Below are positions 12,411 through 64,000 of a stretch of DNA of 64,000 nucleotides, piece after piece. Made by a program: the position numbers and the translations under genes. Positions within the stretch are counted from its first letter, which is position 1, and the number at the start of each line of letters is the position of its first letter. The stretch is from Henckelia pumila. Taxonomy: Eukaryota > Streptophyta > Magnoliopsida > Lamiales > Gesneriaceae. The stretch is taken from the NCBI RefSeq assembly GCF_033568475.1, contig NC_133123.1, forward strand, positions 136,050,242 to 136,114,241, read 5' to 3'. Under the pieces are notes generated by a model, which did not search any database, was not told the origin of the DNA, and saw nothing but the letters and a program-made list of their open reading frames with translations.

Positions 12411-12540
12411 CACTGGCACTGCATTAACATATGCTCTGTATCACAATATCTCTGTCTTCAATCAACTCTTGCTTTGGTTTCTCTCAATCCCAAAAGCAAT
12501 AAAAAATCATTCATATAAATTCTTCCGAAAAATTCAATCA

Positions 12541-13085
12541 TGGGACTTTCAATCGACAGCAGCTCCACAGGCACACACAAAGTGTTCCTTCTTTGCAACT
12601 ACATCTTACTCGGCGCCGCCTCCAGCTGCATATTCCTCACCCTCTCGCTCCGCCTCATCCCGTCCCTCTACGGCTTCCTCCTCCTGCTCCTCCACGTAAT
12701 CACCATCGCCGGCGCAATGTCTGGCTGCGCCGCCGCCTCCAGGGGTGAATCCGGATCCGCCACCAAGTTCTACGGCGCACACATGGTGGCCACCGTGCTG
12801 ACCGCCATTTTCCAGGGGGCGGTGTCCGTGCTGATCTTTACTCGACCCGCTGATTTTCTTGGGAAGCTGAACTCGTACGTGAGGGAGGAAGATGGCGTGG
12901 TGATACTGAAGCTGGCGGGTGGGTTGTGTATCCTCATATTCTGCTTGGAGTGGTTGGTGCTAACTCTGGCATTCTTCTTGAATTATTATGCTCATGTGGA
13001 GTCGAACAATAGCTATCCTATGAGGAGTGGGAAGGTTCAGGATGATGAAGATTTGAAGACTCTTCCATGGCCTTCCAGGGTCTAA
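12541..13085 (+). CDS. Predicted four-transmembrane plant membrane protein
   Basis: An intronless gene of 181 aa with an in-frame ATG in a good context (TCAATCATGG). Hydrophobic segments lie at about residues 17-39, 42-63, 79-101 and 121-147, giving four predicted membrane spans. The tail is hydrophilic and ends in KTLPWPSRV. A GC-rich coding style (many NNC codons in the first half) sets it off from its surroundings. It resembles the small uncharacterised four-TM proteins conserved in land plants. I do not recognise a studied family member and assign no function. It converges on the desaturase gene, with 318 bp between the stops. Confidence 0.8.
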
Positions 13086-13403: not shown

Positions 13404-15863
13404 TCAAACCTTGATTTCTCGACCAAAAATCCAACTGAAGGGAACGGACGACGTCTGCTTCGCCCTCGCCGTGGCCCTTTCTTCCAACTTTCTAATCCTA
13501 GCAGGCAAGCCACAAACAAAATCCTGAGCTTTACGCCCCTCACCAGAAAGACCCATCAATTTCTCCACCTCCCACCTGCCTACCAAGAATTCCAAGATAT
13601 CAGCATAGTCTTTGGCTGTGTAAATTTCAAGCCTTTGGGCTACTGAGGAGAAACGCTCGAAAAGATTATCGTCCCGGCCATCATACATCAGGTGAGCAGG
13701 CATGGTGACTTTTTTCCTCATCATGTCAGCAAGACACAGTACTGTGCCATCTGGGTCGATCTCAAAGAGCTTTTCGATGATTCTGGTGTAGGCGGTCTCG
13801 TGACGTTTCTCGTCTGCGGCGATTGTGCCACATATCTGAGCCAGTTTCAAGTCCCCGTGTTCCTTGGCGAGCCTTGCAGTGTTACCATGAGAAATAAAAG
13901 TTGCTCTTTCTTGGAATGAAGTGTAGATGAATCCGAGGTACGGGTTGTTCTCCGTTTGAGGATCCTGCAAAATATATAACCGCATGAAGAGTAAAGAACT
14001 ATTTCAACTAAAGACTACCTAATTTTTTTCACAAACATATTCATCCATATTTGCAACATAAGATATTTTCACAAGATAAAGCATAGCAAGTGCCATGGAC
14101 TGATAAGATCTCACCATGCCCGAACCGATCAGGTACTGTGTGGTTCTCTCTATTTGCTTCATGTCAACGCGTCCCGTTAGATAAAGATATTTGTTGAGAA
14201 GGTCACCATGCCTATTCTCTTCAGCAGTCCATGCTCTAGTCCAAATAGCCCAAGGAGTGAGGCTTGCACCCGTCTCATCCCGAACTGCATCTAATGTGTT
14301 AATCATGGTCTGATAAGTCGGAAGCGCTTCCTCTGTAATCATATCACCAACCAACACGACAAAACAGTCATCGGGGATTTCTTTTGATCTTTGCCTCAGT
14401 TCCTTGACTTGGTCTTCAAAGCCTTCCGAAGCAGGGTCCGGTAGAAAGTCACTAGGCTGCCAAGACTTCTCGACGTGCTTCAGGAGCACCAAGAGGTCAC
14501 TTTCAGCCCAATCTTTAAGAGAATGGAAGATCTCACGCTTCTCCGGTGGCATGGAATGCGTAACCTGAACATGTACTTCTCGAGGTGGAGTGAAAGGCTT
14601 TTTGGCGTTTCTGGTCTCTCTGCATTCATCGAATCCAAAACTCTCAGACGTGCAACAGAACTATAATGAACAATGAACCGTAAGAAGATAGTATAATTGA
14701 TAATTCATCACTCACACTATGTGCCTCAAAGAAAACTTAAGAAAATAAAACCAGATTCCTTAGGTGCATGCATGGCATCTAATCCAATGTCTTGCAACAT
14801 GTCTTGTCCATGTAGTGCTCAGGTGAAGCTCTTCTACTAGCAAATTAAAAAGTTAAGGACCGTCGGGATTTCAAAGATTACAGTTCTTCAATCGTTAGGG
14901 TGTTATATTACCATGTCGATTAATGAATGAGATTTTATCAGGGATCCATCCCATTATTTGATGTTGGACAAAAGTTTGATCATCACCACAAATTTGGAGT
15001 TTGATAAACTGTTTCACAAATCATTGCCATTTTGTTTTTTTTTAAAAAAACTTTTCTTTGTTTCTTGTTCATCTAATAGGAAACTAGGGAGTTAAAATAA
15101 TATTGGCTGGAAAGCAGTATCACAAAAGTGTCCAAATCAAGAAAGAGCTGAACAAGTTATACCAACAAACTGCTCATGAATTTGCATGCAAAACAAAAGG
15201 TCAAGAATATTGTCACCAATATGCTATAGGCAAACAAGCTACCCACCCATTGACCATATCAGAAACCTGCATTATTATATCACAATCTCCACAAATTTAC
15301 TCCATAAACCAGTAATCTCTGTTAGATATGTAATACTTTTTCTGTATCCCAACGCAAGTTGAGAATAAATTAATAAGATTGGTATTTGATTTAATTAATT
15401 AGTAAACGTTTATGCGTTTTTAGCTAATTAGGTATAAACTTTATTAAGAGCTTAGATTACGTAACTAATTTTGATGTAATGATCTATTGTTTTAAGTATA
15501 TAAAAATATGTATCTGAAGTTACAAAATCAATGCATTTTCATTTGAAGAAAAATATAATAATGAGATCTCAATGAGAAATACAAGTCATGCATGCATGCG
15601 TCAGTTTCATGTAAATCATTTGCAGAAAATTATGTGACACACTTAATTATCAGCGCATATATATATATATATTCGGAAATCATCAATCATATCTCAATGA
15701 ATATAATGAATAATCTCAGCATTTCATTTTCTGACAGAGTACTAAAAAAAAAAAAAGGAACTTACAGAGAGGAAGAAGGAAGCGTTGAAGCCATGACAAT
15801 TTTGTGAGATCCATGAAACGAAGGCATGGTGCGTGGTGTGAAGCTGCTGAATTGAAGTGCCAT
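13404..15863 (-). CDS. Plastid stearoyl-ACP (acyl-ACP) desaturase
   Basis: A soluble di-iron plastid enzyme that puts a cis double bond (usually delta-9 in 18:0-ACP) into acyl-ACP using ferredoxin. Three exons join in frame: 15766-15863, 14115-14619 and 13404-13964, giving 387 aa. Exon 1 encodes a transit peptide starting [10 protein letters not shown] and including VMAST. The exon 2 acceptor was placed at TGCAG|AGAGACC because only it joins in phase to give [19 protein letters not shown]. Iron ligands are present: E129, EENRH (166-170), E220 and DEKRH (252-256). It ends [12 protein letters not shown] where the housekeeping enzymes usually end IFDRQVKL, and several otherwise conserved positions vary (AFADMM is CLADMM). 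It may thus be a paralogue of the DES1-6 type; delta-9 activity is likely but not certain. Confidence 0.92.
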
Positions 15864-16982: not shown

Positions 16983-17256
16983 TGTTGTGAAAAAGTAAAA
17001 ATTTACGGTAAAAAGTAAAAACTCAAAAACTCAAAATTCTACACTTTATAAAATTTTTTCTCTCTTCACAATTGTGTTTTTCTACACAAATGGAGAGACC
17101 TATTTATAGATCTCAATTGGAGATTAGTCAAAAATTAATACATCATTAATTACATCATCACACACTAATTTTCAATATTTTACAACTCAATTTTCAACTT
17201 TCAACCTTCAACATTCAACAATAAATAATAATATATATTTATATATATTTTCAACA
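16983..17256 (-). repeat. 3' LTR of the first copia element
   Basis: Directly repeats 23044-23317 with a single difference. It begins TG and ends CA, and TATAT lies on its outer side. Confidence 0.92.
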
Positions 17257-17421
17257 CTCCCCCTTGTGATGATGATCATGATAGAATGACAGTCTCCATT
17301 ACGTGTTGTATACTGCCTCGTTAAAAACCTTACTAGGAAAAACCCATTGGGACAAAAACCATAGTAAGGAAAAAAGAGTGCAGCCACGTAAACTCCCCCT
17401 GATGTCAACATGAATGATTCT

Positions 17422-20400
17422 TCACATATTTCGTAGATTGCGCATCCCAATATTATAAATGTGTTTTCTGAATATCGCCGTGGGAAGTGCCTTTGTGAAG
17501 AGATCGGATGAGTTCTCACTTGATTGAATGTAACAAATATCAATATCTTTATTCTTCTCCAGCTCTTGAGTGTATGCAAAGAATTTAGGAGGAATATGTT
17601 TAGTTCTGTCACTTTTGATGTATCCTTCTTTCATTTGGGCAACACATGCGGCATTATCTTCATACAGTGTGATTGGATTCTTGTCCACTGATAATCCGCA
17701 AGAAGTTTGGATATGCCGAGTCATTGATTTAAGCCAGACACATTCACGGCTTGCTTCATGTAGTGCAATAATCTCGGCATGATTTGATGAAGTTGTAACA
17801 AGTGTTTGTTTCTGTGATCGCCAAGAGATTGCAGTGCCTCCACGAATAAATACATATCCGGTTTGGGAACGTGCCTTATGTGGATCAGATAAGTATCCAG
17901 CATCAGCATAACCAATTATTCTCTGATTTGTATCTTTTGGATACAAAAGTCCCAAATCCGTCGTTCCTCGTAAATAACGGAATATATGTTTAATTCCGTT
18001 CCAGTGCCTCTTCGTTGGACATGAACTGAATCTTGCCAATAAATTTACTGCAAAAGATATGTCTGGTCTAGTGCAATTTGCAAGATACATAAGGGCACCA
18101 ATGGCACTTAGATATGGTACTTCAGGACCAAGAACAACTTCATCTTCACATGGACGAAATGGATCCTTTTCTATATTCAATGATCTGACAACCATTGGAG
18201 TACTTAAAGGATTTGATTGATCCATATTAAAACGTTTAAGGACCTTCTCTGTATAATTAGACTGGTGAACAAAAATTCCACATTCTTTTTGTTCAATTTG
18301 TAAACCAAGACAATACTTGGTTTTTCCAAGGTCTTTCATTTCAAATTTTTCCTTCAAGTATAACATCACTTCTTGAATTTCTTTATTCGTTCCAATGATG
18401 TTTAAATCATCAACATATACAGCAATAATCACGCATCCCGATGTTGTTTTCTTGATGAAAACACAAGGGCATATTGGATCATTTACATATCCCTTTTTCA
18501 TCAAGTGTTCACTTAGCCGATTATACCACATTCGGCCGGATTGCTTTAACCCATACAATGATCTTTGTAATTTCACAGAATAAAATTCTGTGGGTTCTGA
18601 ACTTTGTGCTTCTAGCATCTTAAATCCTTCAGGGATTTTCATGTATATATCACTATCAAGTGATCCGTATAAATAAGCTGTAACAACATCCATTAGACGC
18701 ATGTCCAAGTTTTCAGACACTGCTAAACTGATCAAATACCGAAACGTAATTGCATCCATAACAGGAGAATATGTTTCTTCATAATCAATTCCAGGTCTTT
18801 GAGAAAAACCTTGTGCAACAAGTCGAGCTTTATATCTCACTATTTCATTTTTCTCATTTCTCTTTCGAATAAAAACCCATTTGTACCCAACAGGTTTAAC
18901 ACCTTTAGGTGTAAGGACTATAGGTCCAAAAACACTACGTTTATTTAGCGAATTTAATTCAACCTGGATGGCATCTTTCCATTTTGACCAATCCTTTCGA
19001 GTTTTGCATTCACCAAAAGATTTTGGTTCATTATCTTCATTTACGATGTCACATGCCATATTGTACGAAAATATCTCATCAATATCTTGTACATTCTTTC
19101 GGTTCCATATTTTTCCAGTATTAATATAATTGATAGAGATTTCATGATTCTCGTCAGTTTGTGGTTCTGACAAAATATTTTCATCATCGTGTGTTTCTTC
19201 TGGAACACCATTTTCTATTTTCTGATCATCATTTTTCTCTATGTATTTTCTTTTCCGAGGATTTTTATCCTTTGAACCGATTGGCCTTCCACGCTTCAGG
19301 CGTTTTATGACATCATGAATGTCTTCATTTTGTTTCTTTGGAATTTCAACTCGAGCAGGGGCATTTACAGCAGGTATATATGATTTTGTTACCCCTTTTG
19401 TGTCTGCAAATGCATCTGGCATTTGATTTGCTATTCTTTGCAAATGCACAATTTGCTGTACATCTTTATCACATTGTTTAGTTCTAGGATCCAAATGTAA
19501 TAATGATGGTACATACCATGTGATTTCTTTTTCGATGTGTTTCTTTTCTCCCCCTAACATTGGGAAGTTATTTTCATCAAAATGACAATCAGCAAACCGT
19601 GCTGTAAACACATCGCCTGTCTGAGCCTCAAGATATCTAATGATTGATGGACTATCATAGCCGATATAAATACCATTCTTTCTTTGAGGTCCCATTTTTG
19701 TTCTTTAAGGTGGTGCAATAGGCACATACACCATACATCCAAAAATTCTCAAATGAGAAATATCTGGTTCTTTGCCAAATACAAGCTGCAATGGGGAGTG
19801 TTTATGATATGCACTTGGCCTGATGCGAATCAATGCAGCAGCATGTAAAATTGCATGTCCCCATATAGAAATAGGGAGTTTCGTTCTCATAATCATTGGT
19901 CTAGCAATCAACTGCAGACGTTTAATCAATGATTCAGCTAATCCATTTTGTGTATGAACATGAGCTACAGGATGTTCAACAGTAATTCCCATCGACATAC
20001 AATAGTCGTTAAAAGTCTGGGAAGTAAATTCTCCAGCATTATCAAGTCTTATTTTCTTGATCGTATATTCGGGAAATTGATTCCGCAATTTTATTATTTG
20101 AGCCATCAATTTTGCAAATGCCACATTCCGAGTGGACAATAAACATACATGTGACCATCTGCTAGAGGCATCGATCAATACCATAAAGTATCGAAATGGT
20201 CCACATGGTGGATGAATTGGCCCACAAATATCACCTTGAATACGTTCAAGAAATATGGGTGATTCCTTTTGGATTTTAGCTGGTGATGGTCTTATAATAA
20301 GTTTCCCCAGAGAACATGCCTTACACTGAAACTTATTATTTTGAAAGATCTTCTGGTCTTTCAGTGGATGACCACTTGTATTTTCTATAATCCTTCGCAT

Positions 20401-20913
20401 CATTATTGAACCAGGATGTCCCAATCGATCATGCCAATTTGTTAGTATTGAAGAATTTCCAATAACCATATTTGATTCGATTGGACTTATATGTGTATAA
20501 TGCAATCCAGTAGGGAGCATTGATAATTTCTCAACTACATATTTCTTTCCTGATTTATATGTAGTAAGACACATATATTTCTCATTTCCTTCGGTTATTG
20601 TTTCCGTATCATAACCATGAGAATATATATCATTAAAACTCAACAAATTTCTTTGTGATCGTGGTGAATATAAAGCACTATTTATCAAAAATTTTGTACC
20701 ATTAGGTAACAAAAATTGTGCTTTGCCACATCCTTCAATCAAGTCTACAGGACCTGATATTGTATTCACCATTGTTTTTGTTGGTTTTAATTCCAAGAAA
20801 TATTTTTTATTTCTGAGGATAGTGTGCGTTGTACCACTATCTGGTATGCAAACTTCCAGTGCATTATTTCCATCTTTGATCATAGCATTTTCCATAATGA
20901 TCTTCAAAAACAA
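17422..20913 (-). mobile_element. pol region of the first copia element
   Basis: Encodes, in copia order on the minus strand, an aspartic protease segment (PDSGTTHT), the GAG-pre-integrase zinc region and integrase core, a reverse transcriptase with YVDDLNIIG and QSLYGLKQSG-like motifs, and a terminal RNase H. It is a fossil part and is not fully open. Confidence 0.85.
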
Positions 20914-21006
20914 TATGCAATAAAATGAATTAAAAAAGATACATGCAAATTATAATATGTTACAATTTAAAAATTACATTGTTACATTCTTTTCCCACCA
21001 GTACAT

Positions 21007-22068
21007 TTAATCAATATCTTTGAAATCATTCAAAAAGTAGGCAGCATCTAAATTCATTGAACCACTTGCATGGTCAATGTTTTCAGTAAAATTGGTCTCT
21101 TTTTCTTTCCCCTTTATTGAATCTTTATAGAGCTTACACAGATGCTCAGGGGCTCGACAAGTTCTTGACCAATGTCCTGGAGTGCCACATCTATAACAAA
21201 CACTCTCAGTTCTTTTTGGATGATTTTCATTTTCACCCGTATTATCATGCTGCCTCTTTTGTGGGTGGTTCGTGACGTTCCTTTGAGATGAGTTATTGAA
21301 ATAACTATCTCTTTTATTTTCAAATCCACGGCCTCGACCACGACCGCGATCATTTCTACGCCCACGTCCACGCCCACGTCCTCGTCCACGACCTCGACCA
21401 AAATCTTGTCTATATCTTTGATTTTGGTTTTCATTTTTACTTACGACATTTGCTTCAGGAAATGCCGTTGAACCAGTAGGTCTGGACTGATGATTTCTCA
21501 TGAGCAATTCATTATTCTTTTCCGCCACGAGTCAACATGCGATGAGTTCTGAGTATCTCGAAAATCCACGCACTCTATATTGCTGTTGTAGAGTTATATT
21601 TGATGCGTGGAATGTGGAAAATGTCTTTTCAAGCATTTCCATCTCAGTAATATTATGCCCACAAAATTTCAGCTGTGAGACAATTCGATACATCGCAGAA
21701 TTATAATCACTCACCTTTTTAAAATCTTGGAATCTTAAAGTATTCCATTCATCTCGTGCGGTCGGAAGTATAACTTCCCGTATATGCTCAAAACGTTTTT
21801 TTAACCCTTTCCACAAAATCATTGGGTCTTTTTCGGTCAAATATTCACATTTCAACCCCTCATCAAGATGTCTGCGTAAAAATATCATCGCTTTTGCTTT
21901 ATCTTGTGAGGATGATATGTTATTTTCTTTGATAGTTTCGTTAAGACCCAATGACTCGAGATGCATTTCTACATCGAGGGTACATGGCATATAATTCTTT
22001 CCGGTTATATCAAGTGCAATGAATTCGAGTTTCGCCAAGTTCGACATGGTGGTACTAGAAAGTAACAA
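21007..22068 (-). mobile_element. gag region of the first copia element
   Basis: Holds a UBN2-type copia Gag N-terminus and a downstream frame with RG/RGR repeats and a CCHC knuckle (CYRCGTPGHWSRTC). It is not continuous over its length. Confidence 0.8.
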
Positions 22069-22464
22069 TGCATTTTATTAGTTAATTTCCATAAATATGA
22101 CAATACAAAATAATGGAAGAACGTAAATTACAAGTGCGTATACAAATAGAGAAAAAATATGTGTTGGAAAATCGCTGGTGAGTAAAAGACTCGTGAGCAT
22201 GATGATCATAGTCGTTATGAAAAATATCCTTATAAATGTCATCATCTCCATCTTCGAAAAAACCGAGGATAAAATATTTTGAGAGAAAGAATGAATTTGG
22301 TGTGATTGAAAATGAGTTTGAGTGAACATATTTATAGGGCAAAAACTAGCCGTTTTGTTACCGTTTGTGACCGTTGGGGGTAAAGAAAAAATTGAGTATG
22401 TGTTGAATAAAAATTCGTGATAATCATGTAATGCATATAATGATAATCATAATTAAATAATTAT

Positions 22465-22790
22465 GTATATCATATCACATTATTATAAGGTCAGTGTCGT
22501 AGACAGCCTTTTATATAATGTTGTGAAATTATACCAATATAGTTAGTATAAAGTCAGGTATAGTATATCATATCACATTATTATAAGATCGGTGTCGTAG
22601 GCAACCTTTTATATAATAACATGAGATTATACAAATATGGTTAGTATATAAATACACAATAATATATATCATATCACGTTATTATAAGGTCAGTGTCATA
22701 GACAACCTTTTATATAATAACATGAAATTATATATTAATATAGTTAATATATATACATAATACATATATATCACGTTATTGTTTAAAAAC
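22465..22790. repeat. ~100-bp tandem repeats in the copia leader
   Basis: About three full units and a partial fourth start near 22465, 22562, 22663 and 22766. Each has TATCATATCAC(A/G)TTATTATAAG, then G(T/G)GTC(G/A)TAG(A/G)CA and CTTTTATATAAT. They sit in the untranslated leader between the 5' LTR and gag. Confidence 0.75.
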
Positions 22791-23043
22791 CTTAGAGGCT
22801 TTTATACTTGTCGTATCCCTTACCGGGAGTGTGGGATGTCGTCTTAACATCCTCCCAGGATTTATAACAAGTTTTGAAAAAAACTTATTTTTTCATAACA
22901 TGATATTATATATTAATATATACACAATAAAAATATATAAACAGTAAAATAAAAATTCTTACTTGTTGAATATTTTTGACTTCTTCTTGTATTTTGGAGC
23001 GTCGGAAAATATAGAGAACCTTCGAGCGATCGTGCTGATAACG

Positions 23044-23312
23044 TGTTGTGAAAAAGTAAAAATTTACGGTAAAAAGTAAAAACTCAAAAACTCAAAATTC
23101 TACACTTTATAAAATTTTTTCTCTCTTCACAATTGTATTTTTCTACACAAATGGAGAGACCTATTTATAGATCTCAATTGGAGATTAGTCAAAAATTAAT
23201 ACATCATTAATTACATCATCACACACTAATTTTCAATATTTTACAACTCAATTTTCAACTTTCAACCTTCAACATTCAACAATAAATAATAATATATATT
23301 TATATATATTTT

Positions 23313-23317
<5 letters not shown>
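23044..23317 (-). repeat. 5' LTR of the first copia element
   Basis: Matches the other LTR at 273 of 274 positions. The adjacent interior bases on the minus strand (CGTTATCAGCACG) resemble a copia primer-binding site. Its outer edge abuts a (TA)n tract that runs up to the stop codon of the FT-like gene. Confidence 0.9.
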
Positions 23318-23363: not shown

Positions 23364-23367
<4 letters not shown>

Positions 23368-24631
23368 GACATCCTCCTGCCTCCGGTGCCGGTGTCCCTT
23401 TGGCAATTAAAATAGACAGCAGCAACCGGCGAACCGAGATTGTAGAGCTCCGCAAAATCCCTAGTGCTGAAGTTTTGGCGCCACCCCGGAGCATACACGG
23501 TTTGCCGCCCAAGCTGGCTGAACAGCACGAATATGAACCGATGTATCCCCATCGAAGGACTAGGATTCTCGTAACATACAATCTCTCGACCTACATACAT
23601 ACATTTTTATCAATATATATAATATAATAATTATAATTAATAATTAAATTTGGTTATCATATATATTAATATACCATCAGTTTTTAGTTTAATTTACACC
23701 ACACGAATGACACTTCTACTTCTTCATATTTCCAACATTTTTCAGTCGTACTAATTAATTGCTTGCACTCCTCAAACAGCGTGTGGCTGGAGGATTGCAT
23801 CTTTAAGTGAAAAGCAAATCTCATCAAAAATCATTTTTTTTTATTTTGAATTTTGATCCATTGAGTTAGCGGATTTTAGTTTTGGTACATTTATAACTTT
23901 TTGCTTTTTTGGGGCCTTCCGGTCCTATTTCACTGTAGTGTCTACGTGAGATCAGAAAATGCTGACGTTTCACTACGTGTCTTATATCACGTCAACGTGA
24001 ATTGAATCAAAATAGAAGTGACCATCGCACCAAAACCCATAATTATAAAAGTCCGTGAGACAAAAAAAAATAAAAATAAAATTTACGTGCTTTGTTTTGA
24101 CGTTCTGATTTTACACAAATAAAAGAGAAAATTAAAAGAAATGGTTGTGTAGTTGGACAACAACAATCATTACATAAATAGAATGAAAGACTCACCAAAA
24201 GTTGTACCCGTGGTTGCTGGAATATCAGTCACCAGCCTACAATAATAACATATAACAAGTCATAATTAATGCATGTATGTAATAATATAATTAAGCTAGG
24301 TAGGAACCAATTAAGAGAAGAAGAAAAAGAAGAGAAGAAGCTATGAGGAATTGAGTGGGGTGGCTCAGTACCAGTGCAAGTACTCCCTAAGGTTGGGGTC
24401 ACTGGGGCTGGGAGCGTCAGGGTCCACCATAACCAGAGTGTAGAAGGTGCGGAGATCGTCGCCGCCAATCTCGACCCTCGGCTGGTTGGCCACTTGACCT
24501 ATCCTCAAGTCATACCCGTTGCTCAATTCTTTGTTGTTGTATGTCACCCTTAGCCCGATGGTTCGCGTAAAAGGATCCAGTACATCTCCTACCACTCGAC
24601 CTACCACCAGTGGATCTCTTCCCCGAGACAT
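23364..24631 (-). CDS. FT: FT-like florigen-family (PEBP) protein, complete copy
   Basis: FT-clade PEBP proteins move from leaf to meristem and act with 14-3-3 and FD to trigger flowering. Three exons: 24372-24631, 24196-24236 (41 nt) and 23364-23590, giving 175 aa, the usual FT length. The first exon fuses what are normally FT exons 1 and 2 ([16 protein letters not shown] is continuous). FT-type residues are kept: Y84 in LREYLHW, Q139 in YAPGWRQNF (segment B), and R61 and R129 of the 14-3-3 contact surface. Departures are LFSQLG for the usual LFRQLG (S125) and PSPSMGIHR for P-P-TAGIHR. The exon 1/2 donor is weak-looking (CACTG|GTACTG) where sister cassettes have GTGAGC. The orthologue of FT rather than TFL1 is supported; activator versus altered function is not decided. 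Confidence 0.88.
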
Positions 24632-25002
24632 GATATATGATCACTCCGATCCGATCCGATCCGATCCAATCCCTTTTTAATTATAATTTATCACCACATG
24701 AACATGGCAACTGCATGCGGGGCGGCCTTCAATTTATATTAATATATCCACTAGTACTCCTAAGCAAACATACATATGTATGACATATTCAATATTCACA
24801 ATGACATGAAGACAACTGACATAAATATAACAATCAATTAGCTAGCTAGAGAATATGTGCTATCTTCAATCATTTACAAAAAAAAAATAAATAATAACAA
24901 TAAAATTGAAGTTTTCATCATTTTTTTGTAATCTTTTTTTGAACTTACTCTCTTGAAAATGAATTATATATGTCTTCATGATTTCTTATCACAGTTTATA
25001 TA

Positions 25003-25056
<54 letters not shown>

Positions 25057-25554
25057 TTTTAGTTGTTTACAAGTAATTATTTATTGGTATTGATTGAAAT
25101 TATAGTGTGTCATAAAGGAGGAAGGTTCGCAAAATAGACGTTTGGGTCCCACGGCATCCCCCGTGCATGGTCGATCGATGATCATATGTTATGTTGTATG
25201 GGGTATGTGGATAAGGGGGTGCCTTTAGCCAATTGGCAGTACCTAATAAAGCTTTGCCAACTGGAATATTTGGATCAAAATGTTTCAGGAATCTTTATTT
25301 TTTTCATATTCACGCCTTTAACAAACAGATAGATTCATATGTGTGAATGAAATTGAAAGGTGCGAATTCTTTATTCGTACTCTTGGGGATCTCTATCGTT
25401 ATTGGCTTAGTTCCACCTACTTTTTCAGGAACCATCACATCTACGTAAATTACGTACACGGATTGAATAATATAATATATTAGCGAGGAGTCGCACGTTT
25501 CAAAAATTTTGTTATTTTATTATTTTTCTAAAAATTCATGTGCACACATGGAGT

Positions 25555-25590
25555 TGGAGCCGTCAAAACGGCCCGGGTTCGTCGGATCAG
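25555..25590. mobile_element. 36-bp left-end remnant of the hAT MITE (unit 1/2 junction)
   Basis: TGGAGCCGTCAAAACGG...GTCGGATCAG matches the left end of the full element at 29256 and is cut off at ATCAG, where FT intron 3 sequence begins. Confidence 0.8.
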
Positions 25591-26099
25591 TTTCTAGTTT
25601 AATTTAGACCACACGAGGACACTTCTTCTTCATGTTTCCAACATTTTCCAGTCGTACTAATTAATTGCTTGCACTCCTCAAACAACGTGTGGCTGGAGGA
25701 TTGCATCTTTAAGTGAAAAGCAAATCTCATCAAAAATCATTTTTTTATTTTGAATTTTGATCCATTGAGTTTGCAGATTTTAGTTTTGGTACATTTATAA
25801 CTTTTTGCTTTTTTGGGGCCTTCCGGTTCTATTTCACCGTAGTATCTACGTGACATCAAAAAATGCTGACGTTTCACTACGTGTCTTATGTCACGTCAAC
25901 GTGAATTGAATCAAAATAGAAGTGACCATCGCACCAAAACCCATAATTAGAAAAGTCCGTAAGACAAAAAAAAAAAAAAATTTACGTACCTTGTTTTGAC
26001 GTTCTGATTTTACACGAACAAAATTAAAGAGAAAATTAAAAGAAATGGTTGTGTGGTCGGACAACAACAATCATTACATGAATAGAATGAAAGACTCAC

Positions 26100-26532
26100 C
26101 AAAAGTTGTACCCGTGGTTGCTGGAATATAAGTCACCAGCCTACAATAATAACATATAACAAGTCATAATTAATGCATGTATGTAATAATATAATTAAGC
26201 TAGGTAGGAACCAATTAAGAGAAGAAGAAAAAGAAGAGAAGGAGCTAGGAGGAATTGAGTGGGGTGGCTCACTAGTGCAAATACTCCCTAAGGTTGGGGT
26301 CACTGGGGCTGGGAGCGTCAGGGTCCACCATAACCAGAGTATAGAAGGTGCGGAGATCGTTGCCGCCAATCTCGACCCTCGGCTGGTTGGCAACTTGACC
26401 TATCCTCAAGTCATACCCGTTGCTCACTTCTCTGTTGTTGTATGTCACCCTTAGCCCGATGGATCGCGTAAAAGGATCCAGTACATCTCCTACCACTCGA
26501 CCTACCACCAGTGGATCTTTTTCCCGAGAAAT
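26100..26532 (-). pseudogene. FT-like cassette 2, exons 1/2 and 3 only (broken)
   Basis: Exon 1/2 spans 26273-26532 and exon 3 spans 26100-26140, at the same lengths (260 and 41 nt) as the complete copy. The start codon is ATT instead of ATG. The exon 1/2 end reads CAC TA|, so splicing to the G of exon 3 makes TAG in place of Trp87. Exon 3 has Tyr for the conserved Asp of LVTDIP. No exon 4 follows; the sequence runs into the next cassette. It cannot make a PEBP protein on its own, though its promoter and exons could still be transcribed. Confidence 0.85.
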
Positions 26533-27411
26533 GATATATGATCACTCCGATCCGATCCAATCTCTTTTTAATTATAATTTATCACCTCATGAACATGGCA
26601 GCTGCATGCGGGGAGACCTTCAATTTATATTAATATCGATCCACTAGTACTCCTAAACAAACATACATATGTATGACATATTCAATATTCACAATGACAT
26701 GAAGACAGCTGACATAAAGATAACAATCAATTAGCTAGCTAGAGATATGTGCTATCTTCAATCATTTACAAAAAAAAATAAATAATAACAATAAAATTGA
26801 AGTCTTCATCATTTATTTGTAATCTTTTTTTGAACTAACTCTCTTGAAAATAAATTATATATGTCTTCATGATTTCTTATTACAGTTTTTTTTATATATA
26901 TATATGAATTTTAGTTATTTACAAGTAATTATTTATTGGTATTGATTGAAATTATAGTGTGAGCTAATAAAGGAGGAAGGTTCGCAAAATAGACGTTTGG
27001 GTCCCACGGCATCCCCCGTGGCGTGGTCGATCGATGATCATATGTTATGTTGTGTGGGGTATGTGGATAAGGGGGTGCCTTTAGCCAATTGGCAGTACCT
27101 AATAAAGCTTTGCTAACTGGAATATTTGGATCAAAATGTTTCAGGAATCTTTATTTTTTTTCATATTCATGCCTTTAACAAACAGATAGATTCATATGTG
27201 TGAATGAAATTGAAAGGTGCGAATTCTTTATTCGTACTCTTGGAGATCTCTATCGTTATTGGCTTAGTTTCACCTACTTTTCCAGGAACCATCACATCTA
27301 CGTAAATTACGTACATGGATTGAATAATATAATATATTAGCGAGGAGTCGCACGTTTCAAAATTTTTGTTATTTTATTATTTTTCTAAAAATGCATGTGC
27401 ACACATGGAAC

Positions 27412-27447
27412 TGGAGCCGTCAAAATGGCTCGGGTTTGTCGGATCAG
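27412..27447. mobile_element. 36-bp left-end remnant of the hAT MITE (unit 2/3 junction)
   Basis: The same truncated MITE end as at 25555, again cut at ATCAG and joined to FT intron 3 sequence. Confidence 0.8.
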
Positions 27448-27951
27448 TTTCTAGTTTAATTTAGACCACACGAGGACACTTCTTCTTCATGTTTCCAACA
27501 TTTTCCAGTCGTACTAATTAATTGCTTGCACTCCTCAAACAACGTATGGCTGGAGGATTGCATCTTTAAGTGAAAAGCAAATCTCATCAAAAATTATTTT
27601 TTTATTTTGAATTTTGATACATTGAGTTTGCAGATTTTAGTTTTGGTACATTTATAACTTTTTGCTTTTTTGGGGCCTTCCGGTTCTATTTCACCGTAGT
27701 GTCTACGTGACATCAAAAAATGCTGACATTTCACTACGTGTCCTATGTCACGTCAACGTGAATTGAATCAAAATAGAAGTGACCATCGCACCAAATCCCA
27801 TAATTAGAAAAGTCCGTGAGACAAAAAAATAATAAAATTTACGTACCTTGTTTTGACGTTCTGATTTTACACGAACAAAAGAGAAAATTAAAAGAAATGG
27901 TTGTGTGGTCGGACAACAACAATCATTACATGAATAGAATGAAAGACTCAC

Positions 27952-28384
27952 CAAAAGTTGTACCCGTGGTTGCTGGAATATAAGTCACCAGCCTACAATA
28001 ATAATATATAACAAGTCATAATTAATGCATGTATGTAATAATATAATTAAGCTAGGTAGGAACCAATTAAGAGAAGAAGAAAAAGAAGAGAATGAGCTAG
28101 GAGGAATTGAGTGGGGTGGCTCACCAGTGCAAATACTCCCTAAGGTTGGGGTCACTGGGGTTGGGAGCGTCAGGGTCCACCATAACCAGAGTGTAGAAGG
28201 TGCGGAGATTGTTGCCGCCAATCTCGACCCTCGGCTGGTTGGAAACTTGACCTATCCTCAAGTCATACCCGTTGCTCACTTCTCTGTTGTTGTATGTCAC
28301 CCTTAGTCCGATGGATAACGTAAAAGGATCCAGTACATCTCCTACCACTCGACCTACCACCAGTGGGTCTCTTCCCCGAGACAT
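27952..28384 (-). pseudogene. FT-like cassette 3, open exons 1/2 and 3 without exon 4
   Basis: Exon 1/2 (28125-28384) has an ATG and an open frame of 86 codons plus two bases, [10 protein letters not shown] to LREYLHW, and a good donor (CACTG|GTGAGC). Exon 3 (27952-27992) is open but encodes [14 protein letters not shown], with Tyr for the conserved Asp. Other changes from the complete copy include R23L, GGDD to GGNN and PSPS to PNPS. No exon 4 is adjacent; the only one lies 4.4 kb downstream at 23590. It is either a truncated pseudogene or an alternative 5' end for a transcript that reaches the shared exon 4. Confidence 0.75.
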
Positions 28385-29255
28385 GATATATGATCACTCC
28401 GATACGATCCAATCCCTTTTTAATTATAATTTATCACCTCATGAACATGGCAGCTGCATGCGGGGCGACTTTCAATTTATATTAATATCGATCCACTAGT
28501 ACTCCTAAGCAAACATACATATGTATGACATATTCAATATTCACAATGACATGAAGACAACTGACATAAAGATAACAATCAATTAGCTAGCTAGAGAATA
28601 TGTGCTATCTTCAATCATTTACAAAAAAAATAAATAATAACAATAAAATTGAAGTCTTCATCATTTATTTGTAATCTTTTTTTGAACTAACTCTCTTAAA
28701 AATGAATTATATATGTCTTCATGATTTCTTATCACAGTTTTTTTTTATATATATATGAATTTTAGTTGTTTACAAGTAATTATTTATTGGTATTGATTGA
28801 AATTATAGTGTGAGCTAGCTAATAAAGGAGGAAGGTTCGCAAAAGAGACGTTTGGGTCCCATGGCATCTCCCGTGGCGTTGTCGATGATCATATGTTATG
28901 TTGTGTGGGGTATGTGGATAAGGGGGTGTCTTTAGCCACTTGGCAGTACCTAATAAAGCTTTGCCAACTGGAATATTTGGATCAAAATGTTTTAGGATTT
29001 TTTTTCATATTCATGCCTTTAACAAACAGATAGATTCATATGTGTGAATGAAATTGAAAGGTGCGAATTCTTTATTCGTACTCTTGGGGATCTCTATCGT
29101 TATTGGCTTAGTTCCACCTACTTTTCCAGGAACCATCACATCTACGTAAATTACGTACACGGATTGAATAATATAATATATTAGCTAGGAGTCGCACGTT
29201 TCAAAATTTTTGTTATTTTATTATTTTTCTAAAAATGCATGTGCACACATGGAGC
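28385..29255 (-). promoter_or_regulatory. Outermost FT cassette upstream region
   Basis: About 0.87 kb shared by all three cassettes upstream of exon 1, including TCCGAT repeats just before the ATG, TTCGCAAAA(T/G)AGACGTTTGGG, GGATAAGGGGGTG (a GATAAGG I-box-like core) and CTACGTAAATTACGTAC. Regulatory roles are inferred only from position and conservation among the copies. Confidence 0.4.
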
Positions 29256-29906
29256 TGGAGCCGTTTTGGCTTCGTCGGATCAGCCTGCCCCGCTATGAAA
29301 AATTGACGTGTTGGGTTGGGATTTTACTGGTCCGTTTGAAGGCGGGCCTAAACGGATCAACCCAAACGGACCGCGAGTTGATGCGGGCAGGCGGCCGACC
29401 CGCCAATTTTTTAAAAAAATAAAATTTTATTTTTTTTTGAATTATGAGATTAAAAATACTTATTTTTAAATAATGTAATTTTAAAATTTTAAAACTAGTA
29501 TTTGTAATATTTTTTATATCTTACATTATTATTTTTTATGGTTAAATATCTATTTATTTTATTCATATTATTTTGAAATCCGATTTTTTATCCAAAATAT
29601 AACAGTTAAGTAGTTAACATCAAAATTTTATATGATTTATTTGATTGTGACATTTATTATTTGTTATTGTTTAACATTTTTGATATTTTTTTCAATCTCA
29701 AATACTAATTTTATTTTTTGAATTTTTTTTTATATTTTTGAATTTTTTTAAAATTTTGGTGGGTGGTCCACCCAATCCGCAACCCGCGGCGGGACAGGGC
29801 GGGTTGGGGTTTTTATGGCCCGTTTGGAGGTGGGCCTAAACGGGCCAACCCAAACAGGCCGCGAGTCATGACGGGGAGCGCTGGGTAGACCCATCTGACA
29901 GCTCTA
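29256..29906. mobile_element. hAT-type MITE with 8-bp target duplication
   Basis: A 651-bp element flanked by CATGGAGC on both sides (29248-29255 and 29907-29914). The ends are TGGAGCCG and CAGCTCTA (reverse TAGAGCTG), with GC-rich subterminal GGGCCTAAACGG and CGGGCGGG-like blocks facing an AT-rich core. No transposase frame. Eight-bp duplications and TAGAG termini fit hAT non-autonomous elements. Confidence 0.85.
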
Positions 29907-30049
29907 CATGGAGCACCCGGATGGGAAAAGAGTATTGTTCAAATAAAAGGGAGTATTTTATTGATTAGTGAGATCATTCACTTACCATGTAATTAAGTAT
30001 ATGTGTAGTTAGTTAATTAAAACCGATCACTTCCCGCTTTATTAAAAGT

Positions 30050-32683: not shown

Positions 32684-34129
32684 TCAGGCCGACAGATACT
32701 TGTAAAATAGTTGTTCAAATATTTGCAGCTCCTTCGCCGGCAATGCAACCGAAACATTCACCCCGCGACCGCCCTTAGCGTCGGGAAACAGCAGTATGAT
32801 GTCCTTTCTATGGTACACCACCGGACAACTATACACGGGCTTCCCCCATGGATACATCACTTCATCGAATCCTAATCTCCACCAAGAAGAGATCAACACC
32901 TCTCCATGCGGGAACCCTCTGTGAATATCTCCCCAGTCTATGGCGGACCTCGCGTATTCGTCCGTCATTCTGGCCACCCCATCGGAGACCATGGCCACCA
33001 GCTTCCAGAAAGGTTCTTCTTCCAGCTCCATGCATCTTGCTGATGCGTAAGCGCTCAGCACCGCGTTGCCGCAGTAGGAATGTGGCAGTGGAGGGTTCAG
33101 TCTGGATCGTATGTCCACGGCGTAGAGGATCGTGGAGACCCGATCCCGGTTGCTCTGGGAGGGACTTGACAGGGCTTTGCATCGCCAGATGTGAGCGGTC
33201 ACCACGTTGAAGCTGGTGATCTTTGTGGTTTTGTTGCAATGTTTGGCTTTCTGTTTCAGGTAACTGATGCTACTCGGGCTGAGATTGAAGATTTTGAAAT
33301 CTAGATCTTCATCTTCACTAGAAAATACTGGATGCTCGTGTTCTCCGGTGAGATGGAGCATTTCTGGGTGGGGGAATGTCACTTGCGGAGGAGACCTGGA
33401 GGCAAGCAGGCGGCGATTATTGCAAGGATTGATGGCCAAGGGTGTATGATCATGATGATCAAATGCTTGTGAAGCGAGGTTTTTCAAGAAAATCTTGAAG
33501 CTCAGCCCATCGAACAAAGCATGATTCGTAGAGATTCCCAGCACGAGGCTGCCGCACTCAAACGATGTCACCTACGTACAAAGCTCATAAATAGATTCAC
33601 ATAAATAATATATATACCTCGTAAGTTGCTAGACATGCAAGAATATCATACATATGCATATTAATTATACCTGAAAAATGCAAAGTGGCTGATACTGATC
33701 TTGATTGTTATCCCAGCTCTGCGTGATTAGCTCTCTATATGCTGGATTGGGATAGACCAAATCCCCCATCTCCTCCAACGTAAACTCGGTCGAGGCCTCC
33801 ACGAACCCAACACCACATCCATTGCACTCGATCTCCAGCCTTCCCGTCTGCTGGTTCAAATTCAATTTTCCGGCCAAGAAATCATAAGGGCCCTGCATCA
33901 ATTTTTGTATCGCCTTTTTAAGCCTAGCAGCCACCACTTCCCGCGGGAACTCCGGGTTGGCAGGGAAGAAATGCACCGTTTGAACAGTGAAATTAAGCAC
34001 TTTGTCTATGTTGGACAAAAACATCGACTCGTGCTCATGAGTTTCTTGGATTGGTAATAATAGATTTGAATAGTGGATTTTGACATTAAGATCTTGAATG
34101 GAAGGTTGATGAAGAGTTCCCATATACAA
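32684..34129 (-). CDS. BAHD-family acyl-CoA transferase
   Basis: A cytosolic enzyme that moves an acyl group from CoA to an alcohol or amine. Two exons, 33671-34129 and 32684-33571, give 448 aa; the second in-frame ATG at 34123 is an alternative start. The catalytic HXXXD is NHALFDG (His170, Asp174), followed by LSFKIFLKNLASQAF. The second family motif, DFGWG, is represented by FDEVMYPWGKP, keeping only its WG part. The neighbourhood of CPVVYHRKDIILLFPD and the N-terminus IHYSNLLLPIQ place it with hydroxycinnamoyl/fatty-alcohol-like BAHD enzymes of the HHT/FACT side, but the substrate cannot be read from sequence. The single intron sits at the usual BAHD position just before the HXXXD exon. 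Confidence 0.9.
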
Positions 34130-34725: not shown

Positions 34726-37700
34726 TCAAGCTTTCCTGGTTTTCCAGATGGTATAAGCCAACAATAGAGGAACTGCAAGGCTGTAGATTGGGGAATGGAT
34801 AAACGGATTCGTCTCATATGCTCTCATAAGACCTCTGCAGTTCTGCATTTGTAAATGAAGGGATACCACCACATCAGAAACAAACCAAAAATATACAATT
34901 GCGACATTATTATATACTTGGAACTATAGTATCATACAAATAATCAGAAACCGAGTGGTCAAACACAAAACTCAGCTACGCTTATGAGACAACGAAAACG
35001 TAACGAAGAAAATCTATCAAGTCGATATGATTGATCAAGAGAGCGTGCTCAAGAAACAAAAGCTTCAGCTTATCGACTATGATCATAGATAAACACAACA
35101 CCGAGATGCTACAAAACAAGATCTTGGGAAGGGGACATTGAAAACTTATAGAAATATAATCCACTTCATTTTTTTAACTCATAAGGACAACAAAGAAACT
35201 CATAGCAAACTCAGAAAACAATCAAATCAAGGCCAATATGAGAGAATTTGCTGAACTGATCCGAGAATTCAACAACAGGTATAATAACATGTTTTATGTG
35301 TCACTATTGGGTATGAAAGTGTAACTGGCAGACAAAGAAATCATCTATAATAATGGAACAGAAAATTAGAGAGAGACTACAAAACTCGAGGATTGTTTTA
35401 ATGCAATGGAAAAGGTATAGCAGCTTTTCCCCAAAAAATTTAGAGATGCAATAATTTTCATCCTCAAATCACTCCATTTATTTTAAATTTCGAATTCTGA
35501 GTCATTGATTAAGCGCAGAAATCTACCTTTAAATGTTTCCAACTGATGGCCAGAGATACGACCAGGAAAAATTTCCTAAGCCAGCGCTTATGAAGAATCA
35601 GTTCTGATACTTTCTTGGTGCGTTTGTTAGGCAATGCAGCTTCCTTGTTTTGGCCATCAGTGTCATCGTTCTTCTTACTTGAAAGAGAAATAATGTAATC
35701 ATGATACAACCCCCTCTCAGCGGCCAACATGATGATTGAAATAAGTGATGGAAAAAGTATAAAATAAAGATGCGGAAGCACGATCACCATTGCATCTGGA
35801 AATCCAAGAAACTCCATCTTTCCAAAATTCTTAAATTTCAGAGCCACACCTCGGTAAGTCATGTATCCCAGTTCTCCACCTTCATTAAAAAATTGGCCAG
35901 AAAACCAAGGGCACAACACAAGGTAAAACAAGTAAACTATCATACAGCACCATGCTACAGGAACATTGTGTATTTCTACCAGAATCCGAGCAGTACTATT
36001 AATGAAGCCTTTATTGGATTTCAAATTTTTATAGAGGTGATGCCTTCTTGAAAATGAAAGGAGTGCTTTTGGAATGAGAAGGATGGAAAGGACTAACAAA
36101 TAGAAGCACCAGAAGATTGGGAGATACAAGCCGTCCCACTGACAGCCCATCACAAAAAATTCTTTCCAATTCCACGGATGCTTGGCAGGAAGACCACTTA
36201 CCGAAAACGGTCTTAGATCAGAAACAGTTGATCTACCAGCAATATCGGTTGTCTCTATTTGCAGTAAATATCTTTCGGGAAATGGATCCTCGAAAGCTTT
36301 AATATTCCATGGGGCACCATAGAGGTCACCACGGGATCCTTCCAGCTTTGTCATTAATGTCTCCATCACAACAAGAAGATTTCCAGAACTAGAGTCATAG
36401 ATCCGAGCCACCACTGAGATAATTGGAGAAGTGGAGAAAACCAGAGCTCTGATTTCCCTGTAAAAAGCTTCTGCTGTCCTGCATTGAGATGATTTTGAAG
36501 TGAACCTGGAGTCCAGAGGAAAAGTTGGCAGTATAATAGTTTTCTTGGCTCCTAACTTGAAGTCAATATCAACAAATGATATATGACCACCATCAATAGC
36601 CAAAATGCGCATGGCTCTACTTTTCCTCCAATCACCCATTTCCCATTCCCAGAATTCATTAAATTTTGTTGCATCACTTGAACAATTAGCTGCGACCTCC
36701 GAGGAAAACCGATGCCCATTTAATTGGAATAACTGTTTTGAACTTCGCTGATGATGACTTGAGTGGTACCTCTTTAAATTCTTTCCAAATTTTGTGTGCA
36801 AATGCCCACATAAGTAGGCAGATAAAGAGTGCATGAGGAAGGTAGCCTTCAGGGTCTTTCCAGACTTTGTGGCTTCTGAGAATGAAAGAGGAAAATGCCC
36901 AAAAGATACCTTGATAACAGGTTGAGAGGACTGAGAATCCCATTGCGAGAGTTCAGAATTTATATCAGTTAATAATTCATCTGTTGGATGGCCAAACAGA
37001 TTAGTTGGGCCCCGCAAACCGGATGGCATGGTGCTGTCAAACCCAACAAAAAGAACTTTCCTTTTGCTCGTCTGGATAGTGCAAAAATATACACAATGGA
37101 TTAGAGATAAAAGACAACTTAAATTAATGCCAAGCATTATTAATAGCAACATCGGGGTGAGTTATAAGTAATAGCTGACAATGTTAATAGCAGACTACAT
37201 TTAGTGTGATCCACAGAATTAAGCTCACGGGGTTAGAATTAATCAGCAAACAAAAGTACTTAATTAATCCCTTCATAACAAGGACTATGAAAAAGAATCA
37301 ATTCCAGAGATGATACCCGGGAACAGCAGAAACACAAGTGATGATAAAACAACGACCACATAAAGCCGTGTCACATAATCAACAAATCAAATGTGGAGTC
37401 CATAAGTTATGGGGCTCCATTTACGACTGTGTATGGTAGCTTAGAAAAGGGAGAGTTAATCACCTACTTGAATTGTGATGCTATTGACGTGCCCACTTCT
37501 TTTACGAAGACCATTGAAGCTGTATTTAGAGAAAAAATCATATGATCCACCAATGGATGGAACACCAAAGTTATCATGATTTCCTCGAACATCATAAAAG
37601 CTGCTCTCATTAAGCCCACTCCTCTTGACAACATCACGCATAACTTTCCGGTATTCAATCCATTCCTCTTCATCTTGTTTCATAACCACTAAATCCTTGC

Positions 37701-46600: not shown

Positions 46601-49600
46601 CTTCTGATGGGTTAGCATCCACATCTTTGTACCTGCACATTTCAAGCATTACCTTTTTTAACGCTTCACGGTATAAATGCTCAAAATTGACAAAATAGCT
46701 TCTATGCTGAGATTGATTCCTTGTTCTCGACTCATAGGTACTTTAAACCTCATCCTCGTTTTAACATTTGTAAAGAGCTGCAATCTTGCACACTGCTACT
46801 TCCCAATAGCTGCCCAATCCCAATTGTTGTCGTTCAGGGAAGTATCGAAGTTCTAAAGCAACTAGCCTGCCTGGAAGCTTGCAAGCAACTCCATCAGGTT
46901 GGTGAACTGACAGACAATCTTGTGCCAAATACTCTGGAGGAAGAAGCAGACACACAGGAATCTGGTACTGTTTTAATAGTTTTTTGTTTCTTGGGAATGT
47001 TTCTTAACTTAGGATTTCTTTTAAATGTTGTCATCCACTCCCAAATCAAAATTGTAAGATGTTTTCTGTCTCAAGTATTAATTTATATGCATGTACAGGA
47101 CGTGAACCGTATGCTGAAGATCATGATAAGTACTTCCCACCAGAATTAGTTCACCCTCAAGAGATAGATTCTCAAACATTGTACTATTGTTATGTAATTG
47201 AGCTGAACCCAAACGTTCAATATGAAGTCAAGCTTCAAGATATTGTGCTGGCTGTCCCGACCAGACTTGGATATGATCTGGAAACGGTTGACCTTGACTT
47301 AGAGGCGGATAGGGGAAAAATAATAGTGAGCTCAAAATACATAGGATATTTAAGATTAACTTCTGCTCAGGTAATTGACATATTCTGACTGATGTCATGT
47401 GCACAGTTTAATAGGTACCATGAGATAGATTTTCAGAAAACTAATTGCATTTTTAAACTTTAATGGCAGATTTCTCTGTGTCGGAGTTTCCAAATTATTC
47501 TTTTCAGGGTTCTTCTTAATCAGAACTTTAACAAGCTTTATGAAGACATCAATCAATCTTCTTTGAGCAATGGTTCTCCAATTCTCAATTACCTTCTTCT
47601 CCCATCTATAGGCTCTAGCCAAAACTTATCTGTTGACTGGAAATGTGTCACCTCTGTTCTATACCTGAGCGATGATTCTTTGGATAAACACAATGATTGT
47701 TTTTCGACCAGAGGTCACGGGCATTATGTGCACACAAAGAATGGTTTGGTTTGCAGTTGCATGTTAGAGAATTCCTTGGTATGCACGCCTCATAATGGTT
47801 TAATGTACTGCATATCCGGCACTTTGGATCGGTATGATGGAAATTCAAATTTTGAGCTAAGAGATGGAGAGGTTCTTTCTTACAAAAAATATTATGAAAA
47901 GAAGTGAGCATCTTTCTTTTTAAGAAACAACTATTTTTTGAACTTTGAACCTTATATTGTGAAGCTAAATGCATATATTCAACTAATGGTTTCAGACATG
48001 GGATCAAGTTGCATTTCGAAGGAGAGAATCTTCTTTATGGCAAACGGATGTTTACAGTGCACAACTACCTTCAGAGATGTAGAACTCATAGGTCAAAAGG
48101 TACCTTGAATTTTGATATGTGCATTCTATTATATCAAATTCAAAAGTTTTTGAAGATTAACAAGAACGAGAGAAACAGGGACAGCCATATGTGCAGTAGA
48201 AATATATTCTATTCTGAATTAATATTCACAGTACAACCCTACACTATATATAGGAAACTTATTTCTATATTTTATTCACAATCTAACCCTAATTAATAGA
48301 CAAGAAATAAGGAATAAATATCAGTCAAATATTCTAAGACTAAATACAATATTTCTTTCCTTTTTTCTACACTCCCCCTCAAGTTGGAGCAAAGATATCT
48401 ATCATGCCCAACTTGCAGATGAAATCTTCGAACTTGGGTCTGAAATGACTCTTTGTTAAGGCATCTGCAATCTGTTGTTCAGATTTGAGAAATGGCATAC
48501 AAATGATTCCTCCTTCAAGCTTTTCTTTGATAAAGTGTCTATCAACTTCTATATGCTTTGTACGATCATGTTGTACTGGATTATTTGCAATGCTAATGGC
48601 TGACTTGTTGTCACAGAATAGCTTCATTGGCACTTTCCAGTCTAACTTTAATTCTTCAAGAACTAGCTTTAGCCATAGTAACTCGCATACACCATTAGCC
48701 ATAGCCCTAAGTTCAGCTTCTGCACTACTACGAGCCACAACATTCTGTTTTTTACTTCTCCATGACACAAGATTACCCCATAGAAAAGTACAGTACCCTG
48801 AGGTCGACCTCCTATCAGAAATGGATCCTGCCCAATCGGCATCTGTGTACGCTTCTATGCTTCTCTGATTGTTTTTTCTGAACAATAAACCTTTCCCTGG
48901 AGAACCTTTTAAATATCTCAAAATCTTGTACACAGCATCCATGTGTTCCTCGTGTGGTGAGTGCATGAATTGACTAACCATACTAACAGCAAAAGTAATA
49001 TCAGGTCTTGTATGAGAGAGATAAATAAGTTTTCCTACAAGACGTTGATATCTCTCTTTATCAATGGAAGTTTTGCTGGACACTTCATTTAGCTTTTGAT
49101 TTGGATCCATGGGTACATCACTTGGTCTGCATCCACTCATTCCTGTCTCTTCGAGTAGATCTAGAACATATTTTCTTTGGGATACATAGATTCCCTTTCT
49201 TGATCTCGCAACTTCCATCCCTAGAAAATATCTCAATAGTCCCAGATCTTTTATCTCAAATTCCAATGCGAGGCAGCCTTTTAAACGGGTTATTTCCACT
49301 TCATCATCCCCTGTGAGAATTATGTCATCGACATATACGATCAAGATTGCCATCTTGCCTTCTTTGGTATGCTTTACAAACATTGTGTGGTCGGATTGCC
49401 CTTGAATATAGCCTTGCTTCTTTACTGATTTCGAAAATTTCTCGAACCAAGCCCGTGGCGACTGTTTCAATCCATACAAAGACTTCTTTAGTTTGCATAT
49501 TTTTCCACCAAATTGTTTTTCAAAACCTGGTGGAGCATTCATGAACACCTCTTCCTCCAATTCTCCATTCAAGAACGCATTTTTTACATCCATCTGATAC

Positions 49601-63928: not shown

Positions 63929-64000
63929 CTGCACATTCATATTAATTTGTCCAAGCAAAAAAAGAAAGTACTGAGTAGTACTGATCATTTCATGCATATA

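Follow-up and report, generated by a model that had tools for sequence, protein, structure and literature searches.

Anatomy of the FT-like locus

The 64,000-nucleotide stretch of Henckelia pumila DNA analysed here (the window; contig NC_133123.1, positions 136,050,242 to 136,114,241) contains an FT-like locus in which the 5′ part of the gene is present three times and the 3′ part once. On the minus strand, three tandem head-to-tail units (cassettes C1, C2, and C3), each 1.84-1.91 kb long and 2.7-4.3% apart in sequence, are accompanied by a single exon 4 (Table 1). Each unit holds about half of intron 3, exon 3, intron 2, a fused exon 1/2, and a promoter. Searches of the window with tblastn recovered this 3/3/1 pattern of strong matches: exon 1/2 gave three matches with E < 1e-49 and one more at E = 4, exon 3 gave three with E of 1e-4 to 0.006 (the next at E = 8), and exon 4 gave one at E = 3e-49 (the next at E = 0.37). 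Thus, an earlier sequence-only reading of this DNA was right that 5′ exons with their upstream DNA occur three times on one strand and exon 4 once, and the junction bases that it gave (27952, 24196, and 23590) are exact. We also agree with it in rejecting three intact FT genes, because exon 4 is present only once at the locus. It located the three copies of what it termed exons 1/2 correctly, but these are not two exons; each is one 260-nt exon that lacks intron 1. The loss of intron 1 is exact in all three cassettes, and introns 2 and 3 are kept. Scanning the window for Rfam families and tRNAs gave no matches. The C1 promoter contains an AT dinucleotide tract (24997-25054) that exceeds its counterparts in C2 and C3 by ~39 bp.

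Table 1. Features of the locus and its surroundings, and the second FT gene. Coordinates are those of the window unless prefixed.
Feature	Position	Strand	Remarks
Single exon 4, 227 nt	23364-23590	-	encodes segment B and the C-terminus; includes stop codon 23364-23366
Repeat unit C1	23676-25590	-	includes 36-nt stub of the hAT-like element, 25555-25590
C1 exon 3, 41 nt	24196-24236	-
C1 fused exon 1/2, 260 nt, open	24372-24631	-	donor CTG/GTACTG with 3-nt insertion
Repeat unit C2	25586-27447	-	terminal 36-nt element stub, 27412-27447
C2 exon 3	26100-26140	-	D91Y
C2 fused exon 1/2, broken	26273-26532	-	start ATG>ATT; codon 87 TGG>TAG
Repeat unit C3	27443-29283	-	continues into the full hAT-like element
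C3 exon 3	27952-27992	-	D91Y
C3 fused exon 1/2, open, good donor	28125-28384	-	R23L, A48S, D59N, S75N
Presumed hAT-like non-autonomous element, 651 bp	29256-29906	.	8-bp target duplication CATGGAGC
Presumed Copia long terminal repeat (LTR) retrotransposon	16983-23317	-	identical 274-bp LTRs, 16983-17256 and 23044-23317
Neighbour gene: fatty acid desaturase 2	13404-14660		Pfam match
Neighbour gene: Transferase family	32684-34129		Pfam match
Neighbour gene: TMEM62	35509-37161		Pfam match
Neighbour gene: PCRF/RF-1 release factor	61596-62042		Pfam match
C77 FT gene	C77:6274528-6279387		four exons, intact 174-aa frame

FT identity and a second FT gene

The predicted product of C1 joined to exon 4 belongs with FT by several measures. 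Its nearest solved structures are FT and Hd3a (E of 2e-87 to 1e-86; TFL1 follows at 6e-63), and it matches the PEBP family (PF01161) at 44.5 bits against a cut-off of 24. In the alignment segment B of exon 4 is identical to that of FT, and residues equivalent to E109, W138, Q140, and N152, which are named in an excerpt of PMC9865765, are present by eye. The locus departs from the usual FT layout of four exons and three introns, because every cassette has exon 1 joined directly to exon 2. Within one species, PEBP genes can have anywhere from two to five exons, according to part of PMC12283651; therefore, the missing intron 1 leaves the locus in the FT clade.

To place the locus among its relatives we searched the genome (884.7 Mb in 133 contigs). 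An FT protein query gave 29 matches (32 candidates scored): four at this locus (three to exon 1/2 and one to exon 4), three within a second FT gene, which lies on contig C77, and 22 with lower scores, presumably from further PEBP genes of the TFL1 or MFT type. The same query thus recovered the window locus, which a genome-wide Pfam PBP search had missed, the latter matching two other places. With cassette DNA as the query, the six matches comprised the three full cassettes, two exon pieces on C77, and a short AT tract inside the array on the opposite strand; no further cassette copy was found in the genome search (2/2 candidates scored). The sequence-only reading had raised further copies of exon 4 as a point to check. 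None was found hidden in the window, and the genome search returned one copy at this locus; the next closest, at 84%, belongs to the C77 gene.

The C77 gene is of the same FT type, its protein being 84% identical to that of the window gene in exon 4 and 71% in exon 1, but it is otherwise ordinary. It has four exons (6274528-6274725, 6274923-6274984, 6277736-6277776, and 6279164-6279387, with the exon 1/2 border placed by GT/AG), retains intron 1, is single copy, and has no cassettes.

State of the cassettes and their possible products

Examination of the three cassettes shows that they are in different states. C2 has lost its start codon, carries G4E and R5K, and has a stop in place of Trp87; the base change at codon 87 also weakens the exon 1/2 donor. 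Judged by these lesions, C2 cannot encode the protein. In C3 the start codon is intact, the exons are open, and the donors are good, as the sequence-only reading stated. In addition to its four exon 1/2 changes it carries D91Y, common to C2 and C3. Three of the C3 changes (D59N, S75N, and D91Y) fall within conserved stretches; residue 59 is D in 5/5 aligned plant chain sequences (two of which are FT) and N in C3. Swapping C1 for C3 lowers the PBP profile score from 44.5 to 39.8 bits. The C77 gene clearly polarises three changes in C1 (S24T, R34K, and V36L), and at position 58, where C1 has D, the other two cassettes N, and the C77 gene E, the direction of change is not polarised. The C1 exon 1/2 donor contains three extra bases, reading GTACTG where C2 and C3 have GTGAGC and the C77 gene has GTGAGA. 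Raw counts of promoter motifs differ little among the cassettes.

Spliced in silico, C1 and exon 4 form an open frame of 175 amino acids. The C3 exon 1/2 joined to exon 3 of C3, C2, or C1 and then to exon 4 is likewise open over 175 amino acids, so the C3-to-exon 4 chimera envisaged in the sequence-only reading is physically possible. Both tested combinations that include an extra 41-nt exon 3 copy lose the frame and end after residue 102. The intron leading into exon 4 would measure 605 nt from C1, 2509 nt from C2, and 4361 nt from C3. If intron 3 were retained, translation from C3 is predicted to stop within a few residues of entering the intron, giving an N-terminal fragment that lacks segment B; an unspliced C1 exon 1/2 is predicted to reach a stop directly after Trp87-Tyr88. 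Pairing of the exon 1/2 donors with U1 scored -4.1 for C1, -4.6 for C2, and -8.1 for C3, and the C77 gene donors scored -8.1 (exon 2) and -2.3 (exon 1). We rejected U1 pairing as proof of failed C1 splicing because that C77 exon 1 donor scores lower still. Downstream of exon 3 there are six AATAAA strings for C3 and five for C2, a motif expected to be frequent in AT-rich DNA; on the gene strand, the 564 bases that follow the exon 4 stop contain none.

Divergence and constraint among the cassettes

Over 1815 ungapped columns, C1 differs from C2 by 3.8% and from C3 by 4.3%, and C2 differs from C3 by 2.7%, a resemblance that far exceeds chance. Variable columns make up 19/305 of the coding set (which includes a few intron columns) and 79/1510 of the non-coding set (Fisher p = 0.49), and 14/19 of the coding changes are nonsynonymous, with 70-75% expected at random. 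Because coding columns vary like non-coding ones and nonsynonymous changes are this frequent, the pattern is as expected without constraint. The ratio of nonsynonymous to synonymous divergence (dN/dS) between cassettes is 0.69-1.26 (5/6 estimates computable). Against the C77 gene it is 0.06-0.12 for each cassette over exons 1-3, and for C1 0.06-0.10 over exons 1-3 and 0.07 in exon 4; these latter values are rough, as dS is near saturation. The gene was therefore constrained before the duplication, and among the cassettes no coding constraint is detectable.

These results give no sign that the array is kept as a set of alternative promoters, the function that the sequence-only reading suggested as possible. 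C2 could not make the protein, C3 is altered in conserved stretches, coding and non-coding DNA diverge alike, and the cassettes show none of the low dN/dS seen against the C77 gene. Overall, that reading is partly supported; as far as the DNA can tell, a shared last exon is not favoured.

A transposon end marks the repeat units

The upstream ends of the repeat units coincide with a non-autonomous element, which we take to be hAT-like from its 8-bp target duplication. This duplication, CATGGAGC, lies at 29248-29255 and 29907-29914; nine bases (ACATGGAGC) are common to both flanks, and the 8-bp frame was fixed by the ends of other copies. At 39 other places in the genome the element is matched at length (40 candidates scored of 296), and of four copies read at their ends, three have the same terminal sequence and two an exact 8-bp duplication. 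C1 and C2 each end upstream in the first 36 bases of the element, and the full copy follows C3. Near its end, a small deletion sets this full copy apart from the C1 and C2 stubs. Each stub joins intron 3 at ATCAG, five bases common to intron 3 (23676-23680) and the element (29279-29283). Since both C1 and C2 carry stubs, the element was there first; a tandem duplication followed, and then a second one. C2 and C3 are the closest pair of cassettes (2.7%, against 3.8 and 4.3%). We rejected C2 as a hybrid formed by unequal crossing-over, as the site patterns along the unit have no clear switch point. With a substitution rate of 7e-9 per site and year, the array would be roughly 2-3 million years old.

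The 3′ side and the neighbourhood

On the other side of the gene, the retrotransposon listed in Table 1, presumably Copia from its open reading frames and domain order, is separated from the exon 4 stop by 46 bp and lies within an AT repeat, with TATAT on both sides. The insertion is recent, and it moved anything beyond the insertion point 6.3 kb from the gene. In Arabidopsis, the 2.3 kb directly downstream of FT hold an enhancer required for expression, as described in part of PMC13067676.

Four neighbouring genes have Pfam matches (Table 1), and the intervals 12519-13085 and 55273-55686 have no Pfam match. From their open reading frames we take 55273-56843 to be RNase III-like and 62858-63941 to be NAC-like. 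A second element, at 48379-52830 with one open reading frame of 1483 amino acids, is presumably also Copia-like.

Interpretation of the array

We consider it reasonably probable that this locus is a secondary FT paralogue whose 5′ part underwent a neutral partial triplication, the extra pieces of which are decaying. The starting point would have been a single secondary FT-like gene, made up of C1 and exon 4 and already without intron 1; two tandem copies of its promoter, exon 1/2, and exon 3 would then have arisen by way of a 5-bp join linking intron 3 to the end of the hAT-like element ~0.9 kb upstream. C2 and C3 would thus be promoter-plus-5′-exon fragments without a terminal exon, drifting and most likely producing nothing, or short truncated transcripts. 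We infer that no useful chimeric transcript arises. The florigen role is probably carried by the standard C77 gene, and it is uncertain whether C1 plus exon 4 still works.

Several observations weigh against this account. All three clearly polarised changes in C1 are nonsynonymous, so C1 looks no more constrained than C3, and C1 has L36 where 5/5 aligned plant chains have V. C3 keeps its start, frame, and good donors, whereas the exon 1/2 donor is weaker in C1, which is supposed to be the real gene. The upstream regions are kept to a similar degree in all three cassettes, each with a TATA-like box 97-107 bp 5′ of the start position. Finally, 19 coding changes are few, and one of the cassettes may be under weak constraint or positive selection.

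A rival reading is that these are overlapping genes like PEP1 of Arabis alpina, with C3 (and C1) serving as alternative promoters and first exons, both spliced to exon 4 to give two FT proteins that differ in expression. C3 is the cassette nearest to the sequence upstream of the element, U1 pairing is equally strong for its exon 1/2 donor and for the C77 exon 2 donor, and the C3-C3-exon 4 frame is open; moreover, in PEP1 both exon 1 copies are spliced to one exon 2 from separate start sites, as the available part of PMC3527215 reports. We nonetheless judge this unlikely, as splicing from C3 to exon 4 would have to bypass the exon 3 copies of C2 and C1, whose acceptors are intact, the tested combinations that include an extra exon 3 lose the frame, C3 is changed at D59N, S75N, and D91Y, there is no signal of constraint, and C2 is dead. 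A bolder version is quite unlikely: with the C1 donor damaged, the C3 promoter and exons would have taken over, feeding exon 4 across a 4.4-kb intron to make a variant FT (R23L, A48S, D59N, S75N, and D91Y) under separate control and possibly with altered or antagonistic activity. A damaged C1 donor would also fit a locus that is already a pseudogene in its entirety, C1 and exon 4 included. The insertion that gives C1 GTACTG where C2, C3, and the C77 gene have GTGAG, the stop that follows if the exon is left unspliced, the young Copia just past the stop, and the lack of AATAAA in the downstream 564 bases of the gene strand all point this way, but C1 plus exon 4 remains open over 175 amino acids with segment B as in FT, and the still weaker C77 exon 1 donor means that a low C1 score is no proof of lost splicing; we think such an end state rather improbable.

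The cassettes might instead act in cis, as RNA or as a protein fragment, with read-through, promoter competition, or truncated N-terminal products lowering or reshaping FT output; truncated or regulatory RNAs were also suggested in the sequence-only reading. They insert 3.7 kb and two promoters between the upstream sequence and C1, and the C2 and C3 promoters face C1 with no exon 4 terminator between. Spacing of downstream elements affects Arabidopsis FT output (part of PMC13067676). In Chenopodium ficifolium, exon 4 of one FT copy is damaged; this copy left the flowering of Arabidopsis Col-0 unchanged, but a delay was seen in another setting (part of PMC10392752). On the other hand, the AATAAA strings after exon 3 of C3 and C2 could end transcripts, all copies have the same orientation and offer no obvious source of a hairpin, and the Copia beside exon 4 would explain altered expression just as well; such effects have a low probability in our estimate. 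Tandem arrays are prone to mis-assembly, a concern that the sequence-only reading had raised. Here the copies are 2.7-4.3% apart with many indels, unlike identical assembly duplicates, and they share one precise junction inside a 233.5-Mb contig, so an artefact is very improbable.

Comparison with known systems

If C3 or C1 transcripts do share exon 4, the locus would be an FT counterpart of PEP1, and partial 5′ duplication a quick route to a second promoter for a flowering-time gene. If they do not, the neutral partial triplication that we favour would make it a clean example of a transposon-ended partial tandem duplication that leaves promoter-bearing gene fragments, which automatic annotation could miscount as three FT genes. 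Literature searches for an FT gene with a partial 5′ duplication, a missing exon 4 or intron 1, or an alternative first exon gave no FT case of this design among the open-access titles and abstract beginnings listed.

UGT1A-type loci have many promoter/first-exon units before shared 3′ exons, and these first exons are conserved and expressed; the array in the window likewise has several such units before one 3′ exon set. Another likeness is PEP1, the FLC orthologue of Arabis alpina, in which a partial 5′ tandem duplication that includes the promoter (PEP1a/PEP1b) leaves the 3′ exons single and yields two transcripts that share them, according to the portion of PMC3527215 consulted. The same layout is found here, with promoter and 5′ exons tandemly duplicated and the 3′ exon single. 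As coding units, however, the extra copies differ from those of PEP1: C2 is broken and C3 is open but altered in conserved stretches, their promoters are near-identical, and they are known from DNA alone. FT copies that lack all or part of exon 4 in the presence of other FT genes are described in parts of PMC10392752 (CfFTL2-2 of Chenopodium ficifolium) and PMC9865765 (SP6A of Etuberosum), the latter, a review, mentioning the suggestion that a potato relative lost its tubers through the exon 4 deletion. In those two cases, as far as these parts describe them, a complete gene lost its exon 4 by deletion; at the locus described here, exon 4 was never copied.

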